From Candidatus Eisenbacteria bacterium (GTDB lineage Bacteria > Desulfobacterota > Binatia > DP-6): a stretch of 64,000 nucleotides of DNA. The position numbers and the translations under genes were made by a program. Positions 51,451 through 61,284 of the stretch are shown one piece after another. The number at the start of each line of letters is the position of its first letter. Positions within the stretch are counted from its first letter, which is position 1. The DNA lies in assembly GCA_035577985.1 (NCBI GenBank), contig DATJZY010000166.1, positions 1 to 64,000 on the forward strand. Direction: 5' to 3'. The notes under the pieces were generated by a model. That model was not told where the DNA came from and did not search any database. It was given only the letters and a program-made list of their open reading frames with translations.

Positions 51451-51479
51451 TTGACTGGGCCGGGGGCGGCGGCTACAAG
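51451..51479 (+). promoter_or_regulatory. Sigma70-like promoter heading the argS-like/SPOR/trp unit
   Basis: TTGACT (51451-51456), 17-nt spacer, TACAAG (51474-51479), 77 nt before the ATG at 51556. It is the only promoter-like site seen before the trp genes. The leader 51480-51555 shows no Trp-rich peptide. Confidence 0.5.
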
Positions 51480-51555
51480 CGCCGCATGCTCGCCGGCTCG
51501 ACGATCCCGTCGCCCATCCGCGGTGAGCGGTGTCTTTGGCGCCGCTTCGGCGGGC

Positions 51556-52674
51556 ATGAAGCGTCCGCTTGAGGCGCTGCTCCAGGACGCGCTCCACGCG
51601 GCCATCGCCGCCGGCGACCTCCGGGTGCCCGAGGCGCCCGCCTGCGCCATCGAGGATCCCGAGCTAGCGACCTTCGGCGACGCGACCTGCGCCGTCGCCC
51701 GCAAGATCGCGCGGCCCCTCGGGCGGCCCGCGCTCGACGTCGCGCGCACGATCGTGCGGCACGTGCGCGATCCGCACGGCTGGCTCGACGCCGTCGAGGC
51801 CGCCGGGCCCGGATTCATCAACCTCACCGCGTCGCTCGCGTTCTGGCGGACGGAGCTCGCGCGGGTCCTGGATGCGGCGGCGCCGGACGCTCGTGAGCCC
51901 GCGGCGGTCGTGACGATCGCCGCACCGGACGATCCTTCCGCCGGGCGCGTCGCCGTGGTGGCCGACGCGATCGCACGCCTGCTGGGTCGGGTGGGATGCC
52001 GCGTGGAGCGCGTGCGCGCCGACGCGGACGTTCCCGCGGCGCTCGGGACGGCAGCGGACCGGTGCGTGGTGGTCGGCTCGGCGGCGACGGGCGGCGTTCT
52101 CGCTCGCGCAAAGCGCCTTCGCGCCGAAGCGGGCGGCGATCCGACCACCACCACCATAGTGACGGTCGCAGCCCTCGGCGCCACGTCGCGGGGTCGATCG
52201 CTCGACGCGGCCGGCGTCGCGCGGCTCCTCGCGATGGACGCGGCGCGCTTCGCCCTCCTCGGCGAAGAGGCGGACGTCCCGGTCGAGCTCGACGTCGATC
52301 TCCTCGGCGCCGAGCGCATCGACAACCCGCTCTTCGCCGTGCGCTACGCGCTGGTTCGTCTCGCGCGCGCCGCTGGTGCCGAGTTGCCGGCGCCCGACCT
52401 CGAGCGACTCGGGGCGGCGGAGCTGCCGTGCCTGCGCCTCGTGGCGCGCCACCGGGACGTGCTCGATCTCGCCGTGCGGCGCGCCGAGCCCCACCTCGTG
52501 GTCGCGCACGTCCGGGCGGTCGCGGCGGCGGCGCATCGGTACTACAATCGGCACCATCCGCACATCGGCGACCCGCGCGACGTGGCGGCGCGCGCGGCGA
52601 TGCTGCGTGGTATCGGGACCGTGCTTCGCGATGGGCTCGCGCTCGCCGGCGTGCGCGTCGCGGAAGGGGGATGA
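51556..52674 (+). CDS. Arginyl-tRNA synthetase-like protein lacking the catalytic core
   Basis: 372 residues, against about 550-590 for ArgRS. Residues 1-108 match the ArgRS N-terminal (Add-1) domain that reads the tRNA elbow, ending GPGFINLTASLAFW. Residues 255-372 match the C-terminal DALR anticodon-binding domain (DNPLFAVRYALVRLARA; HRYYNRHHPHI). Between them only ~145 residues remain. Where HxGH should be the sequence is APDDPSAGRVA (123-133), and the KMSKS region reads ALGATSRGRS (206-215) just before the conserved SLDAAGVARLLAMDAARFALL. Aminoacylation is therefore very unlikely. The place, before a SPOR gene, is that of argS in relatives. Possible roles: tRNA-Arg sensor, regulator or chaperone. 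The true argS must be elsewhere. Confidence 0.8.
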   Translation: MKRPLEALLQDALHAAIAAGDLRVPEAPACAIEDPELATFGDATCAVARKIARPLGRPALDVARTIVRHVRDPHGWLDAVEAAGPGFINLTASLAFWRTELARVLDAAAPDAREPAAVVTIAAPDDPSAGRVAVVADAIARLLGRVGCRVERVRADADVPAALGTAADRCVVVGSAATGGVLARAKRLRAEAGGDPTTTTIVTVAALGATSRGRSLDAAGVARLLAMDAARFALLGEEADVPVELDVDLLGAERIDNPLFAVRYALVRLARAAGAELPAPDLERLGAAELPCLRLVARHRDVLDLAVRRAEPHLVVAHVRAVAAAAHRYYNRHHPHIGDPRDVAARAAMLRGIGTVLRDGLALAGVRVAEGG

Positions 52675-52682
52675 GGGGGAGC

Positions 52683-53468
52683 ATGGCGAAGGCACCGCGT
52701 CCGGCGCTCAGGTTCGTGGATCGATTGGTGCTGCTCGTCGCGTGGCTCGTCACGTGCGGCCTCGTGTACGTGCTCGGCTTCTACGTCGGGAACAAGACGC
52801 AGGAGCACCGGCCGGGCATGGAGGAGCGCGAGGTGCGCCTGCCCGTGACGTCCGTTCCACCACCCGAAGGCCAGCGCCCCAAGGAGGCGAGGGAGTTCCC
52901 GAGCTTCTACCAGGCGCTGCCGGGCGGCGAGCGGCCGATCGAGGTCGCGCGCGCCCCGACGTCGACCACCGTGACGGTCGTTCCGACGACCGTGCGCCCG
53001 ACGACGACCGTACCGGCGGGCGCCGCCCCGACTGCGACGACGCTCAAGCCCGCCGTGACGACGACGCCGACCACGCGTCCCTCGACGACGACGCTGCCGC
53101 GCCCACCCGCCGCGACGCCGAGCCCGCCGCCCGGCGCGACGACGGGCCCGCCGCCCGCGGTGACGTCCGCGCCGCCCGCGGCGCCGCCGGCTGCCACGCC
53201 GCCGCCGGCCGCCACCCGACCGGTCGCCCACACGCCGTCGTGGACGGTCGAGGCGAGCCCGACGCGCAGCCGCGTCGAAGCCGAGCAGCTCCAGGCGACG
53301 CTCCGAAAGCGCGGCTACGACGCCACCCTGGTGCAGGTCCAGCGTGACGGCGACGCCTGGTATCGGCTGCGGATCGGGCGCTACGCGACCGCGGAGCAGG
53401 CGAACGAGGTGATGCGCAAGCTGCGGGACGGCGAGGGCGTGGCGCATGCCTTCGTCGCGTCGGAGTAG
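52683..53468 (+). CDS. Membrane-anchored SPOR-domain protein
   Basis: 261 residues. One transmembrane helix at about 12-35 is followed by a periplasmic linker of roughly 130 residues rich in Thr, Pro and Ala, then a SPOR domain (about 186-261: [22 protein letters not shown]...[10 protein letters not shown]). SPOR domains bind denuded septal peptidoglycan, so the protein probably acts at the division site. ATG 52671, overlapping the previous stop, is an alternative start. It is inserted between the argS-like gene and trpE, which it precedes by 3 nt. Confidence 0.88.
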
Positions 53469-53471
53469 CGC

Positions 53472-54997
53472 GTGAGTCAGCCGACCCCATCGCGGCGCGC
53501 ACCGGCCGGCGCCACGGTTCGCGCGGGCGCGGTCTTCCCGTCGCGCGAGGACTTCCACGGCCTCGTGCGCCAGGGGAACCTCGTTCCCGTCACGCGCGAG
53601 ATCCTGGCGGACCTCGAGACACCCGTCTCGGCGTTCCTGAAGGTGCATCGGGGGCCGTACGGCTTCCTGCTCGAGAGCGTCGAGCACGGCGAGAAATGGG
53701 GCCGCTACAGCTTCCTCGGCACCGAGCCGGCGCGCGTGCTGCGGCTGCGCGGACGGAGCGTCGAGCTCGAGACGCCCGGCGGCGCGACCGTCCGGCGCGA
53801 GACCGACGATCCGTTCGGCGAGGTGAAGCGCCTGCTCGCGCCGTATCGACCCGTCGCCGTGCCGGGTCTGCCACGCTTCACGGGCGGCGCCGTCGGCTAC
53901 GTCGGCTACGACATGGTGCGCGCATTCGAGCGGCTGCCCGTGCGGACCACCGACGACCTCGGCATGCCGGACGCCTGCCTCATGCTGGTGCGGAGCCTCC
54001 TCGTCTTCGACAACATGGCGCAGAAGATCAAGGTCGTCGCGCACGCGCACGTGACCGACGACACGTCGCCCAACGCCGCCTACGACGAGGCGGTGGCGCG
54101 CGTCGACGAGCTGGTGGCACGGCTCGGCGCGGCGATCGTGGAACCGCGGGGCAGCGGGCGGGCGAGCGGCGAGGTGCGCTCCAACGTCTCGCCCGAGGCG
54201 TACCAGTCGATGGTGCGCCGGGCGAAGGAGTACGTCTTCGCGGGCGACGTCATCCAGGTGGTGCTCGCGCAGCGCTTCGAGCTGCCACTGAGCGCGGCGC
54301 CCTTCAACGTGTACCGCTGCCTGCGGACGGTGAATCCGTCGCCGTACCACTTCTTCCTCGCGCTCGGCGCCGACACCGTGGCCGGCGCGTCGCCCGAGGT
54401 GATGGCGCGCGTCGAGGGCGGCGAGGTGACGGTCCGCCCCATCGCCGGTACGCGGCCGCGCGGCACGATCGAGAAGGAGGACGCGGAGCTGGCCGCGGAG
54501 CTGCTCGCCAATCCGAAGGAGATCGCCGAGCACGTGATGCTGGTCGACCTGGCCCGCAACGACGTCGGCCGGGTGTCGGAGATCGGCTCGGTCGCCGTCA
54601 CCGAGCGGATGATCCTCGAGCGCTACTCGCACGTGATGCACCTCGTCTCGAACGTACGCGGGAAGCTCATGCCCGACGTCGACGCGTTCGACGCGTTTCG
54701 CGCCACGTTCCCGGCGGGCACGCTCACCGGCGCGCCGAAGGTCCGTGCGATGGAGGTCATCGAGGAGCTCGAGCCCGTGCGGCGCGGGTTCTACGGCGGC
54801 GCGGTCGGCTATTTCGCGTTCGGCGGCGCCATGGACACGGCGATCGCGATCCGCAGCGTCCTCATGCGCGACGGCCGCGCCTACATCCAGTCGGGCGCGG
54901 GCATCGTCGCCGACTCCGATCCGGAGGCCGAGCACCGCGAGTGCGTCAACAAGGCGCGCGCGATGATCCAGGCCGTGCGGCTGGCGGAGGCGTTGTG

Positions 54998-54998
<1 letters not shown>
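53472..54998 (+). CDS. trpE: Anthranilate synthase component I
   Basis: 508 residues from GTG 53472. It converts chorismate and ammonia (from TrpG glutaminase) to anthranilate. The N-terminal part has [18 protein letters not shown] with the Ser of the Trp feedback site (LLES). The chorismate-binding domain carries [25 protein letters not shown], and [18 protein letters not shown] near the C-terminus. First trp gene; its stop overlaps the trpG ATG. Confidence 0.97.
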
Positions 54999-55584
<586 letters not shown>

Positions 55585-55588
<4 letters not shown>

Positions 55589-56613
55589 CACCGCAGGCCG
55601 CGCTCGGCCGGCTCGTCGGGGGCGACTCTCTCGCCGAAGACGAGATGGCCGCCCTCATGACCGCGCTCCTGGACGGCCAGATGACGCCGGCCCAGATCGG
55701 CGCGATCGCCGTCGCGCTGCGGATGAAGGGGGAGAGCGAAGCCGAGCTGGCGGGCGCCGCGCGCGCGATGCGCGCGCACATGACCCGGGTCGAGGGTGCG
55801 CCTGCGGGCGCCGTCGACACCTGCGGGACGGGCGGCGACGGCGCCGCCACGCTCAACGTGTCGACGGCAGCGGGGCTGGTGGTCGCGGCGGCCGGCGTGC
55901 CGGTGGCAAAGCACGGCAACCGGGCCGCGTCGGGCAGCGTCGGCGGCGCCGACGTCCTGGAGGGGCTCGGCGTGCGCCTCGTGCTCGATCCCGCCGCCGC
56001 GTCGGCGTGCCTGCGCGAGGTCGGATTCGTCTTCCTGTTCGCCCCCGCGTTCCATCCCGCGCTCCGCCACGCCGCGGCGCCGCGCCGCGAGCTCGGGGTC
56101 CGCACGTTCTTCAACCTGATCGGGCCGCTCGCGAATCCCGCCGGCGTCGGGCGGCAGGTGATCGGCGTGGCCGAGCGCCGGTGGGTCCTCCCGCTCGCGC
56201 ACGTGCTCCAGCGGCTCGGCGCCGAGCGCGCGTGGGTCGTGCACGGCGCCGTCGGCCTCGACGAGCTGGCGCTCTCGGGCGAATCGCTGGTCGCGGACGT
56301 GACCCCGGGTGCGGTGGACACGCGCACCGTGAGGGCCGCGGACGCGGGTGTTCCATCTGCCCCGCTTGCCGCCCTGCGGGTCACGAGCGTCGCCGATGCG
56401 GTCGCGCGTGTGCGCGCCGTCCTCGCCGGAGAGCACGGACCGGCACGCGACGTGGTCTGCCTCAACGCCGCCGCCGCGCTGGTCGTGGGCGGGGCGGCGC
56501 GCGACCTGCGCGACGGCGCCGGGCAAGCGGCCCGCGCCATAGACGGCGGCGCCGCGACGGCGCTCCTCGAGCGGCTCGTCGCCTTCACGCAGGCTCGAGG
56601 AAGCGGGGCATGA
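55585..56613 (+). CDS. trpD: Anthranilate phosphoribosyltransferase
   Basis: 342 residues. It joins anthranilate and [21 protein letters not shown] (about 78-94) is the PRPP loop and [21 protein letters not shown] (about 110-130) the anthranilate site; the second metal motif is near [13 protein letters not shown]. The start overlaps trpG and the stop overlaps trpC, both by 4 nt. Confidence 0.97.
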
Positions 56614-57383
56614 TCCTCGACGAGATCCTCGCTCACAAGGTCGACGAGGTCTCGGCGCGCAAGCGCGAGGTGCCCCCGTCGGCCCTGCGCGAGCGGCCCC
56701 TCTACGCCGAGCCGCGCCGCGGCTTCCGGGCGGCGCTCGCCGCGCGGCCGGCGCCCGCCGTGATCGCGGAGCTGAAGCGCGCCTCGCCGTCCAAGGGCGT
56801 GATCCGTACGCACTACGACCCACCCGCCCATGCGCGGAGCTACGAAGCCGCCGGTGCCGCCGCGCTGTCGGTCCTGACCGACGAGCGCTTCTTCGAGGGC
56901 CATCTGGACCATCTCGCGATCGTGCGCGGCGTCGTCGCCCTCCCGTGCCTGCGCAAGGACTTCCTCGTCGATCCGTACCAGATCGACGAAGCACGGGCGT
57001 TCGGCGCCGACGCCGTGCTCGTGATCGCCGCCGCCGGCTCGGCGGCGCTGCGCGTCGAGCTGCTGGCGGCGGCGCGCGAGGCGGGGCTCGACGCGCTCGT
57101 CGAGGCGCACGACGAGCGCGAGCTCGAGTGGGCGTTGGCCGCGGGTGCGACGCTCGTGGGCGTCAACAACCGCGACCTCGCGACCTTCGCCGTGAGCCTC
57201 GAGACCACCGAGCGGCTGGCGGCGCTCGTGCCGCCGGGAATCCTCCTCGTCGCCGAGAGCGGCATCCACTCGGCGGGCGACGTCCGTCGCATGGTGGCGG
57301 CCGGCGCCCGCGCGGTCCTGGTCGGCGAGGCCTTCATGGCGGCGCCGGATCCCGGGGCGGCGCTCGCGGAGTTCCTCACGTGA
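56610..57383 (+). CDS. trpC: Indole-3-glycerol phosphate synthase
   Basis: 257 residues, a TIM barrel not fused to TrpF. It closes the indole ring. AVIAELKRASPSKGVI (about 50-65) carries the catalytic Glu and Lys, LRKDFLVDPYQIDEAR the second Lys, and VNNRDL with LVAESGI the remaining substrate contacts. It overlaps trpF by 4 nt. Confidence 0.97.
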   Translation: MILDEILAHKVDEVSARKREVPPSALRERPLYAEPRRGFRAALAARPAPAVIAELKRASPSKGVIRTHYDPPAHARSYEAAGAAALSVLTDERFFEGHLDHLAIVRGVVALPCLRKDFLVDPYQIDEARAFGADAVLVIAAAGSAALRVELLAAAREAGLDALVEAHDERELEWALAAGATLVGVNNRDLATFAVSLETTERLAALVPPGILLVAESGIHSAGDVRRMVAAGARAVLVGEAFMAAPDPGAALAEFLT

Positions 57384-57988
57384 GCGTGGTCGTGAAGATC
57401 TGCGGCGTCTGCACGCCCGAGGACGCGCGGGCCGCGGTCGACGCCGGCGCCGACCTCCTTGGCCTCAACTTCGTGCCGTCGAGCCCGCGCTATCTCGTGC
57501 CCGACGCGGCGCGCCGCGTGGCGGCGGCCGCCACCGTGCCGCTCGTCGGGGTCTTCGTCGACGCCCCGCGGGAGGAGGTCCTGCGCATCGCCGCGCACGT
57601 CGGCCTCGCAGGCCTCCAGTTCCACGGCGACGAGCCACCCGCGTACTGCCGCGGCTGGACGCAGCAGACGATCAAGGCGCTGCGGCCGCGCCCCGGCGAG
57701 GACGCGGCGGCGCGCGCCGCCGACTACGACACCGACTTCATCCTGCTCGACACCTGGGTTCCCGGCGTCGCCGGCGGCACGGGCGTCGCGCTCGACCCGG
57801 CGGCCGCGTGCGGTCTTCCGCGCGACCGCCTGTTCGTGGCCGGGGGCCTTCGGCCCGAGACGGTGGCGGACGTCGTGCGCGCGCTGCGTCCCCACGGCGT
57901 CGACGTGGCCTCGGGCGTCGAGCGCAGACCCGGAGTGAAGGACCATGACAAGATCCGCGAGTTCATCCGACGCGCGAAAGCTGCCTGA
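57380..57988 (+). CDS. trpF: Phosphoribosylanthranilate isomerase
   Basis: 202 residues from GTG 57380. The catalytic Cys is C7 (VKICGV) and the acid is the Asp of ILLDTW; LQFHGDE and VAGGLRPE bind phosphate. Its 3' end overlaps trpB by 44 nt, the longest overlap in the operon. Confidence 0.96.
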
Positions 57989-59165
57989 CGCCGAGGGGCA
58001 CTTCGGGCAGTACGGCGGCCGCTTCGTCGCCGAGACGCTCATGCCGGCGATCCTCGACCTCGAGCGGGCGTGGTCGAAGCTGCGCAAGGACCCAGGCTTC
58101 CGGCGCGAGTTCCACGGCTGGCTCGCCGACTACGCGGGGCGTCCGACGCGCCTCCACTTCGCGCGGCGCCTGACGGAGCGGCTGGGCGGGGCGCGGATCT
58201 ACCTGAAGCGCGAGGACCTCCTCCACACCGGAGCGCACAAGATCAACAACACGATCGGCCAGGCGCTCGTCGCCCGGCGCCTGAAGAAGCGCCGGCTGAT
58301 CGCCGAGACGGGGGCGGGGCAGCACGGCGTCGCGACGGCGACCGTCGCCGCGTTGTTCGGCATGCCGTGCGAGATCTTCATGGGCGCCGAAGACGTGCGC
58401 CGGCAGAGCCTCAACGTGTTCCGCATGAAGCTCCTCGGCGCCGAGGTCCGCGTGGTCGAGTCGGGTGCGCGTACGCTGAAGGACGCCATGAACGAGGCGC
58501 TGCGCGACTGGATCGCGACCGTGACCGACACGTTCTACGTGATCGGCACCGTGGCGGGCCCGCATCCGTACCCGCTCATGGTCCGCGACTTCCAGTCCGT
58601 CATCGGCGCGGAGGCGCGCCGCCAGATCCTGAAGGCCACCGGGAAGCTGCCCACCGCGGCCGTCGCATGCATCGGCGGCGGCTCGAACGCGATGGGGCTC
58701 TTCCACGCCTTCCGCAACGACCGCCGGGTCCAGCTCGTCGGCGTCGAGGCGGCCGGCCGCGGCCTCGAGACGGGCGCGCACGCGGCGTCGCTCTCGGCGG
58801 GGCAGGTGGGTGTCCTGCACGGCAACAAGACGTACCTGCTGCAGGACGAGACCGGGCAGATCCGCGAGGCCCACTCGATCTCGGCGGGGCTCGACTACCC
58901 GGGCGTCGGGCCGGAGCACGCGTATCTCCGCGACACCGGCCGCGCGACGTACGTGACCGCGACCGACGACGAGGCGGTGTCGGCACTCCAGCTCCTGTCG
59001 TCGACCGAAGGCATCATCCCCGCGCTCGAGAGCGCCCACGCGATCGCGCACGTGGCGCGCATCGCGCCGGCGATGCGGCGCAGCGACGTGCTGCTCGTGT
59101 GTCTGTCCGGCCGCGGCGACAAGGACATGGGCACGGTCGCGCAGCACCTCGGAGTGCGCCTCTGA
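57945..59165 (+). CDS. trpB: Tryptophan synthase beta chain
   Basis: 406 residues. It condenses indole and serine. The PLP Lys is K99 ([11 protein letters not shown]) and the phosphate-binding loop GGGSN is at 244-248. [17 protein letters not shown] begins the conserved part at residue 18, so the ATG at 57945 is the only sensible start despite overlapping trpF. TrpB1 type, which pairs with the TrpA encoded next. Confidence 0.97.
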
Positions 59166-59968
59166 TGACACGCATCGACGACACGTTCGCTGCGCTGCGC
59201 GCGCGGCGCGAGGTGGGCTTCGTCGCCTACCTCACGGCGGGCGACCCGTCGCTCGCCGTCACGCCCGATCTCCTGCGCGCGCTCGTGGCGGGAGGAGCCG
59301 ACCTGATCGAGCTCGGGGTGCCGTTCTCCGACCCGATGGCCGACGGCCCGGTCCTGCAGCGCGCCGCCACGCGTGCGATCGCCGCCGGCACGAGCCTCGC
59401 GCGCGTGCTCGAGATGGTCGCCGAGCGCCGTGCCGAGCTGCCGGTGCCGATCGTGCTCTTCGGCTACTACAACCCGTTCTTTCGCTACGGGCTCGACGCG
59501 GTGGCGCGCGACGCGCGCTCGGCCGGGGTCGACGGCTTCCTGTGCGTCGATCTGCCGCCCGAGGAGGCGGCCGATCTCTCGGCGGCGCTCGCGCGCAACC
59601 AGCTCGACCTGATCCGTCTGCTGGCGCCGACCACGCCGATCACCCGCGCAAGGAAGATCGCGAACGCGGCGAGCGGCTTTCTCTACTTCGTCTCCGTGCT
59701 GGGCGTGACGGGGGCTCGACGTGAGCTGCCGCGCGAGCTCGAGGAGCTCGTGCGGCGCGTCGCCGCCGTGACGGCGCTTCCCATCGGCGTCGGCTTCGGC
59801 GTCCAGACCCCCGAGCAGGCACGCTGGATCGCCGGCTTCGCCGACGCGGTCGTGGTGGGCAGCGCGATCCAGCGCCTGGTCGAGGAGCACGGCGCCGCCG
59901 GCGCGCCGGCCCGCGTCGAGGCCTTCGTGCGGAGCCTCAAGGACGGCATGCGCGCGGCCGAGCGGTGA
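59165..59968 (+). CDS. trpA: Tryptophan synthase alpha chain
   Basis: 267 residues, a TIM barrel that cleaves indole-3-glycerol phosphate. Catalytic E49 and D60 (LIELGVPFSDPMADGP) sit at the same numbers as in the Salmonella enzyme. FVSVLGVTGAR and GVGFGVQTPEQ bind phosphate. It overlaps trpB by 1 nt and folC by 4 nt. Confidence 0.97.
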   Translation: MTRIDDTFAALRARREVGFVAYLTAGDPSLAVTPDLLRALVAGGADLIELGVPFSDPMADGPVLQRAATRAIAAGTSLARVLEMVAERRAELPVPIVLFGYYNPFFRYGLDAVARDARSAGVDGFLCVDLPPEEAADLSAALARNQLDLIRLLAPTTPITRARKIANAASGFLYFVSVLGVTGARRELPRELEELVRRVAAVTALPIGVGFGVQTPEQARWIAGFADAVVVGSAIQRLVEEHGAAGAPARVEAFVRSLKDGMRAAER

Positions 59969-61284
59969 CGGCGTACACCGACACCATCGCCTACCTCCAC
60001 GGCCTCGAGGTCACGAAGGGCTGGGACCTCGAGCTCGAGCGCATCCGCGCGGCGCTCGCGCGCCGCGGGCATCCCGAAGCACGCGTGCCGGCGCTCCACG
60101 TGGCGGGCACGAACGGGAAGGGGTCCACGGCCGCGATGCTCGAGGCCGTGCTGCGCGCCGCCGGCTACCGGACGGGCCTCTACACGTCGCCGCACCTCGT
60201 CGACTTCGCCGAGCGCATCCGCGCAGGAGGGCTCGCGATGCCGCACGACGCGATCGTCGAGCTCGTCGCGGAGCTGCGGGGCGATCTCGATCGGGCGGGC
60301 ATCGCCCTCACGCACTTCGAGTTCGCGACCCTGCTCGCGCTCGAGTGGTTCGCCCGCATCGGCGTCGAGGTGGGCGTGATCGAGGTCGGCCTCGGCGGCC
60401 GGCTCGACGCGACCAACGTGGTGCACCCGATCGTGACCGCCGTGACGTCGATCGCCCGCGACCACGAGGAGTTCCTCGGCAGCGATCTCCGCTCGATCGC
60501 GCGCGAGAAGGCGGGCATCGCCAAGCCCGGCGTCCCACTCGTGGTCGGGCGGATCGTGACCGAGGCCGAGGACGTCGTCGTCGCCCACGCGCGCGCGGTG
60601 GGCGCTCCGGTCGTCTCCGCGGTGCGCGATGCGACCCTCGAAGCGGGTGCGGGCGGGCTCGCCTTCCGGGGGCCCCGGGGCCACGCATGGGACCGCCTCC
60701 GGATCGGCCTGCCGGGCGCCGTGCAGGAGGAGAACGCACGCGTCGCGCTGACGGTCCTTTCGTGTGCGGCGGAGCGGTTCCCGTGCACGGTCGACGCCGT
60801 CCGCGGCGGGCTCGGGGCGGCGCGGTGGCCCGGCCGGCTCGCGACCCTGCGGGAGCGCCCGCGCGTGGTGGTGGACGGCGCCCACAATCCGGCCGGCGTC
60901 GAGATGCTCCTGCGCGAGCTTCCGGCCCTGGTCGCCGACCGTCGCGTGACCCTCGTCTTCGCGGTCATGGCCGACAAGGCGTGGCAGGCGATGCTCGATC
61001 CGCTCGCGCGGGCATCGGCGCGCGTCGTGCTGACGCGCGTCGGGCGGCGCGGTCTCGATCCACAGGTCATGGCGGCCCACGTCGGCGATCAGATCCCGAC
61101 GGACGTCCTCGAGGAGGCGCGCGCCGCCGTCGAGCGTGCGCTCGCGGTCACGGCCGACGACGGCGCCGTCGTGGTCGCCGGATCGCTGTTTCTGGCGGGC
61201 GAGGCCTACCTCGCGCTCGGCCAACGCGAGCTGATCCCGCCTTGGCAAGGTTGGGAGCGAATTGGTACACAGGCGCGCCCATGA
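59965..61284 (+). CDS. folC: Folylpolyglutamate synthase / dihydrofolate synthase
   Basis: 439 residues from GTG 59965. Mur-ligase-like: the P-loop GTNGKGST is at residues 48-55, SPHLVDFAERIR follows, then VGLGGRLDATNVV, and DGAHNPAGV opens the C-terminal domain. It adds glutamate to folates. Whether it also has dihydrofolate synthase activity cannot be told from sequence. It overlaps lptD by 4 nt. Coupling with trp genes fits shared chorismate chemistry and a conserved deltaproteobacterial neighbourhood. Confidence 0.95.
   Translation: MTAYTDTIAYLHGLEVTKGWDLELERIRAALARRGHPEARVPALHVAGTNGKGSTAAMLEAVLRAAGYRTGLYTSPHLVDFAERIRAGGLAMPHDAIVELVAELRGDLDRAGIALTHFEFATLLALEWFARIGVEVGVIEVGLGGRLDATNVVHPIVTAVTSIARDHEEFLGSDLRSIAREKAGIAKPGVPLVVGRIVTEAEDVVVAHARAVGAPVVSAVRDATLEAGAGGLAFRGPRGHAWDRLRIGLPGAVQEENARVALTVLSCAAERFPCTVDAVRGGLGAARWPGRLATLRERPRVVVDGAHNPAGVEMLLRELPALVADRRVTLVFAVMADKAWQAMLDPLARASARVVLTRVGRRGLDPQVMAAHVGDQIPTDVLEEARAAVERALAVTADDGAVVVAGSLFLAGEAYLALGQRELIPPWQGWERIGTQARP

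Follow-up and report, generated by a model that had tools for sequence, protein, structure and literature searches.

The Add-1 domain of arginyl-tRNA synthetase (ArgRS) holds the contact with the D loop and elbow of the tRNA. In E. coli, arginine identity is determined mainly by the D-loop residue A20, along with the anticodon residue C35 (PMC9976931). Synthetase relatives have been reused outside tRNA charging, as described for HisZ, GluQ-RS, and PoxA (PMC9437257), and the vertebrate DALR protein DALRD3, which is without catalysis, binds arginine tRNAs and works with METTL2 as a tRNA-Arg adaptor (PMC7237682). For NrtL, an "ArgS-related anticodon-binding protein" (NF045898), no relevant paper was found in the library searched, although the NCBI family name exists. 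Here, these proteins are compared with P0001, the protein encoded by the ORF at 51556–52674 of the window, the whole 64,000-nt stretch of DNA from Candidatus Eisenbacteria bacterium (contig DATJZY010000166.1) that was analyzed. All features of the locus given below lie on the plus strand.

Domains kept and motifs lost in the native argS

The ORF encodes 372 aa from ATG to TGA with no internal stop and occupies the argS slot by synteny. A Pfam search of P0001 matched Arg_tRNA_synt_N (PF03485) at residues 7–91 (E 1.2e-12) and DALR_1 (PF05746) at residues 288–370 (E 2e-8), both over their cut-offs, and returned no match to the catalytic core PF00750 and no regulatory domain. The NCBIfam argS profile TIGR00456 gave 54.9 bits, below its cut-off of 261.65, and the sole match in a scan of P0001 against named genomes was a mycobacterial ArgRS. 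In an alignment with family and class relatives, the Add-1 domain (51556–51873, residues 1–106) was kept together with its GPGFIN segment. It is followed by a relic of the HIGH region (51925–51954, residues 124–133, PDDPSAGRVA), where a 3-aa deletion and substitutions have turned the native PTGPLHIGHGR.AV into DPSAGRVAV, and by a relic of the KMSKS region (52180–52203, residues 209–216), where the native V(R/K)M(G/S)(K/T)R reads ATSRGRSL and a 10-aa deletion lies just after. Two flanking stretches were still alignable: the post-HIGH helix (ADAIARLL..G..VER) and, beyond KMSKS, the DAARFALL segment. In the DALR anticodon-binding bundle (52324–52665, residues 257–370), YVQYAHAR was altered and the C-terminal APERM altered or lost, and the net charge was +6, compared with −4 to +2 in the relatives. 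A predicted structure of P0001 (pLDDT 45, from a thin alignment with one homologue) was discarded. Among the features of the ArgRS enzyme class, Add-1 and DALR were thus present, whereas HIGH, KMSKS, and the PF00750 core were absent, and we infer that P0001 would be unable to aminoacylate. The sequence-only reading had described a derived, catalytically dead ArgRS with both ends kept and with alignable residues flanking the two lost motifs; the Pfam and alignment results are consistent with that description, and a chance likeness to ArgRS was rejected on the matches of the end domains and the alignment of those flanks.

Relative to the family argS, P0001 has nine deletions, of 7, 3, 41, 12, 65, 29, 10, 6, and 1 aa (174 aa in total), all in frame. 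How the big central gap is split depends on the alignment, and at least six deletions are clear under any alignment. The argS core has been eroded in steps, by a series of separate deletions together with substitution; the loss of the core read earlier from the sequence therefore stands, but not the single cut. The frame is open, with none of the frameshifts or internal stops that would mark a pseudogene, and by our own estimate the chance of at least six deletions all falling in frame is roughly one in 3^6. An assembly error, which the earlier reading had named as a threat to its claim, was rejected because of the at least six separate deletions, the changes in the remaining core residues, and the family gene order on both sides; contamination was likewise rejected, given the gene order of the contig conserved on both sides and the same deletions. 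That reading had named the absence of homologues with these deletions from related genomes as a refuting outcome, and this outcome applies by half: searches of 148 class genomes and of a 395-genome sample of the phylum recovered no such homologue, but an independently derived Streptomycetaceae protein, described below, has the same architecture.

SPOR, the trp genes, and folC come next after argS in most of the class's families that were sampled. Within the family, argS lies directly after rpsD-rpoA-rplQ; in some other families rplQ is more distant, or no nearby copy was detected. The position of the ORF is that at which relatives keep argS (rplQ-argS-SPOR-trp-folC), as had been stated from the sequence. 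In six of six sampled family relatives (G001–G006; in G002 the gene is partly masked), the best match to the P0001 gene was argS, which was full-length and approximately 43–48% identical over the ends. A tree built from the trp and rpoA proteins placed the source genome with G001 and the other family members, so the truncation is derived in the source lineage. By position, the ORF is orthologous to the family argS; it is the ancestral argS native to this organism and not a duplicate, and the earlier term "paralogue" had to be given up; the working copy, argS2, is a foreign xenologue.

Two observations concern argS in other genomes. The gene looks mosaic in G003 and G004 (L037 and L038), whose catalytic core is 77–81% identical to that of family f6 (G011, L041) and 45% to that of G005 (L039); in Add-1 and DALR, the two genes resemble their own family more (64–75% vs. 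46–54%), a pattern suggestive of intragenic recombination that exchanged the core. In G037 (L028, G037:C68), a single short contig carries two argS copies that have identical match scores and are separated by 2.2 kb, either through a tandem duplication or as an artefact of assembly.

The surroundings of the ORF are also those of the family. A promoter at 51451–51479, with TTGACT as −35 (51451–51456), a 17-nt spacer, and TACAAG as −10 (51474–51479), corresponds to TTGAC...TA(C/G)AA upstream of the full-length argS in five family relatives; an automatic promoter scan missed it, since the scan requires T at the last −10 position. The leader motif CTTTGGCGCC at 51534–51543, 13–22 nt ahead of the start codon, contains CTTTGG identical in five of five aligned family relatives, followed by CGCC in most. 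The argS/SPOR junction (52675–52685) has an SD-like GGGGGAG directly after the TGA and the SPOR ATG at 52683, and the same TGA/SD/ATG arrangement follows the full-length argS in five family relatives. Downstream, SPOR, trpE, trpG, trpD, trpC, trpF, trpB, trpA, and folC (52683–61284) follow in an order shared with the argS loci of family and class relatives. The listed trpB ORF starts 44 nt before the trpF stop (57945–57988), and trpB may in fact start at a later codon. The intact frame, the start, and the promoter noted earlier from the sequence were hence borne out. The P0001 gene resembles the full-length ArgRS genes of G001–G006 in position, promoter, leader motif, start, stop context, and domain ends, and differs from them in that HIGH, KMSKS, and approximately 174 further core residues are present in the relatives.

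The displacing enzyme argS2

A second, full-length argS, which the sequence-only reading had proposed to look for, was found. This gene, argS2 (C166:68603–70333, minus strand, beyond the window end), is the sole PF00750 match and the sole full-length argS of the genome. In the tree, it falls in another ArgRS clade than the native argS, where functional argS genes from streptomycete-like genomes are its neighbors and the argS of family f5 comes next (UFBoot 96–100). A sugar-nucleotide epimerase gene and gspE, which are adjacent in four family relatives (approximately 80 bp apart in G005), here have argS2 between them. Thus, argS2 is a foreign xenologue, a single-gene acquisition inserted 17 kb from the old gene, and since the contig otherwise keeps the gene order of the family, contamination is very unlikely. 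The codon usage of argS2 is that of the resident genes (GC3 0.95), suggesting that its acquisition was probably not very recent and that the displaced state is not brand new.

Comparable argS switches were found in the families f5 and f12 and in genome G040. SPOR comes after rplQ in f5 and f12 (L086–L097, L099), where no remnant of the native argS was detected between the two genes, and a search for native argS in G040 found none. In the stretches compared, trpE and trpG are also missing behind SPOR in f5. The present locus captures the replacement of an essential gene at an intermediate stage: the incoming gene and the site of its insertion, the native gene left behind, and relatives in the intact state have all been identified, and the neighboring families f5 and f12 add cleanly completed argS replacements.

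The same families bear on the moonlighting roles suggested from the sequence, namely tRNA-Arg sensing, regulation of the operon, or partnership with another enzyme, none of which is favored by the fact that f5 and f12 run the SPOR-trp unit with the old argS deleted. A sensor of tRNA-Arg or arginine controlling the SPOR-trp-folC unit would suit a gene that heads this unit and keeps its tRNA-binding ends; the head-of-unit position is inherited, however, because full-length argS holds the same slot in relatives, and no regulatory domain was found by Pfam. We consider such a regulator highly improbable.

Constraint on the remnant

Branch lengths were computed on a fixed species tree, with the core represented by three alignable segments. 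The branch to the P0001 gene was 1.16 for Add-1, 1.61 for DALR, and approximately 3.2 for the core, compared with 0.21 for the trp/rpoA proteins; the branches of the sister genome were slower, at 0.45 for Add-1 and 0.31 for DALR. Equal branch length was rejected for Add-1 against the core (2dlnL 8.8, 1 df) and for both ends against the core (7.5), and DALR alone against the core was marginal (4.1). Among the columns conserved in the relatives, P0001 kept 28 of 33 in Add-1, 19 of 30 in DALR, and 15 of 25, 11 of 23, and 12 of 27 in the core segments, so that Add-1 stood out against the 57 of 105 kept elsewhere (Fisher P 0.002). GC by codon position was live-gene-like in Add-1 (0.79/0.53/0.93) and nearly flat in the middle (0.78/0.69/0.81). 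The end-biased rates, together with the preserved frame, promoter, leader motif, and SPOR junction, argue against uniform neutral decay of the P0001 gene. Since only one lineage is concerned and the ends evolved faster than in the sister genome, a function of P0001 is not proved by these data.

A displaced argS that is slowly decaying, its frame kept open by chance and high GC and with no present function, would account for the fast evolution throughout P0001 in a single lineage, for the weakened codon usage in the middle, and for the clean loss of argS in f5 and f12; moreover, GC-rich DNA leaves spurious long ORFs, of which an 840-aa antisense ORF here is an example. Such a pseudogene fits poorly, however, with at least six deletions all in frame, with the end-biased constraint, with the preserved start, stop, and promoter, and with a displaced state that, judged from the resident codon usage of argS2, is not brand new, and we regard it as rather doubtful.

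Alternatively, the protein might be inert, and the selected feature might be unbroken translation from the promoter to the SPOR start, averting polarity and allowing coupling, so that in-frame deletions would be tolerated and frameshifts would not. The conservation of the promoter, the frame, the stop position, and the 8-nt stop/SD/ATG junction, as well as the many in-frame deletions, agrees with such an operon-leader ORF, and the streptomycete NrtL likewise stops approximately 15 nt ahead of lysA. A leader ORF would nevertheless be expected to decay equally along the protein, whereas Add-1 was better kept than the core, and f5 and f12 lost the argS ORF yet kept SPOR-trp. This explanation appears unlikely to us.

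The reading we favor, with about even confidence, is that P0001 is a weakly constrained, non-catalytic tRNA-Arg-binding accessory or remnant of the displaced native argS, because Add-1, including GPGFIN, is its best-kept part and the DALR bundle has turned basic. With the foreign argS2 inserted, the native argS has lost its catalytic core by in-frame deletions while the ends, the start, the stop, and the promoter have stayed, and P0001 would be held by weak, end-biased purifying selection. NrtL offers a parallel for this reading, and DALRD3 a precedent. As a non-catalytic accessory, it would bind the tRNA-Arg elbow via Add-1 and the anticodon arm via the basic DALR bundle, and ribosomes translating its ORF may also be passed on to the SPOR start codon that follows closely. 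Against tRNA binding speak the alterations in the anticodon-recognition motifs YVQYAHAR and APERM, and the basic DALR could reflect GC-rich drift.

NrtL and other known systems

The NrtL profile NF045898 was the only one that matched P0001 along its whole length, at 87.9 bits and thus below its cut-off of 340. Large, streptomycete-like genomes, which we take to be Streptomycetaceae, carry genuine NrtL genes in the slot held by argS in Mycolicibacterium, directly upstream of lysA-hom-thrC-thrB. In the match table for 61 genomes of this family, tallied by hand, approximately 19 had native-clade argS only, approximately 14 had native-clade argS and a second, weaker-matching argS, and approximately 26 had NrtL (24 over the NF045898 cut-off), nearly all of them also with a weaker-matching argS. 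The three states (native argS, native plus second, and NrtL plus second) occur side by side in G676–G733, G171, G255, and G276, and look like a stepwise displacement series. The second argS beside NrtL belonged to the clade of argS2 in three of three genomes examined by tree. NrtL itself nests in the actinobacterial argS, and P0001 falls, on a long branch, on the side of its class's native argS; the core-less Add-1/DALR architecture has therefore arisen at least twice. P0001 was rejected as a member of NrtL on its score below the cut-off and its separate tree placement, with which synteny agrees.

The dN/dS values of NrtL were obtained by NG86 on GC-rich genes and serve for comparison only: the medians over NrtL pairs were 0.47 for Add-1, 0.81 for the core relic, and 0.48 for the DALR side, and in three genomes NrtL gave 0.46–0.62, compared with 0.08–0.20 for the neighboring lysA, hom, and thrC. 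P0001 and NrtL can be seen as a replicated natural experiment, in which selection would keep the tRNA-binding ends once synthetase catalysis is taken over, and the two independent cases may represent a repeatable route for retiring, and possibly reusing, an essential enzyme. Only tentatively do we extend this to the possibility that displacement of native argS by foreign argS recurrently yields non-catalytic tRNA-Arg-binding Add-1/DALR proteins, evolved at least twice, perhaps since the foreign enzyme serves some isoacceptors poorly. The two proteins raise one common question, which is testable in Streptomyces.

NrtL resembles P0001 in keeping Add-1, the relic of the post-HIGH helix, the DAAR segment, and DALR with the catalytic core removed, and in sitting in the argS slot of its lineage beside a foreign, functional, full-length argS of the clade of argS2. 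It differs in its separate origin, in its location before lysA rather than before SPOR-trp, and in sequence (approximately 31–32% identity to P0001). DALRD3 shares with P0001 an ArgRS-type DALR domain and the absence of the catalytic motifs, but its N-terminal half is without a recognizable domain and it has METTL2 as a partner, whereas P0001 has Add-1 and no known partner. HisZ, GluQ-RS, and PoxA keep the catalytic fold, and the catalytic core is exactly what P0001 has lost.
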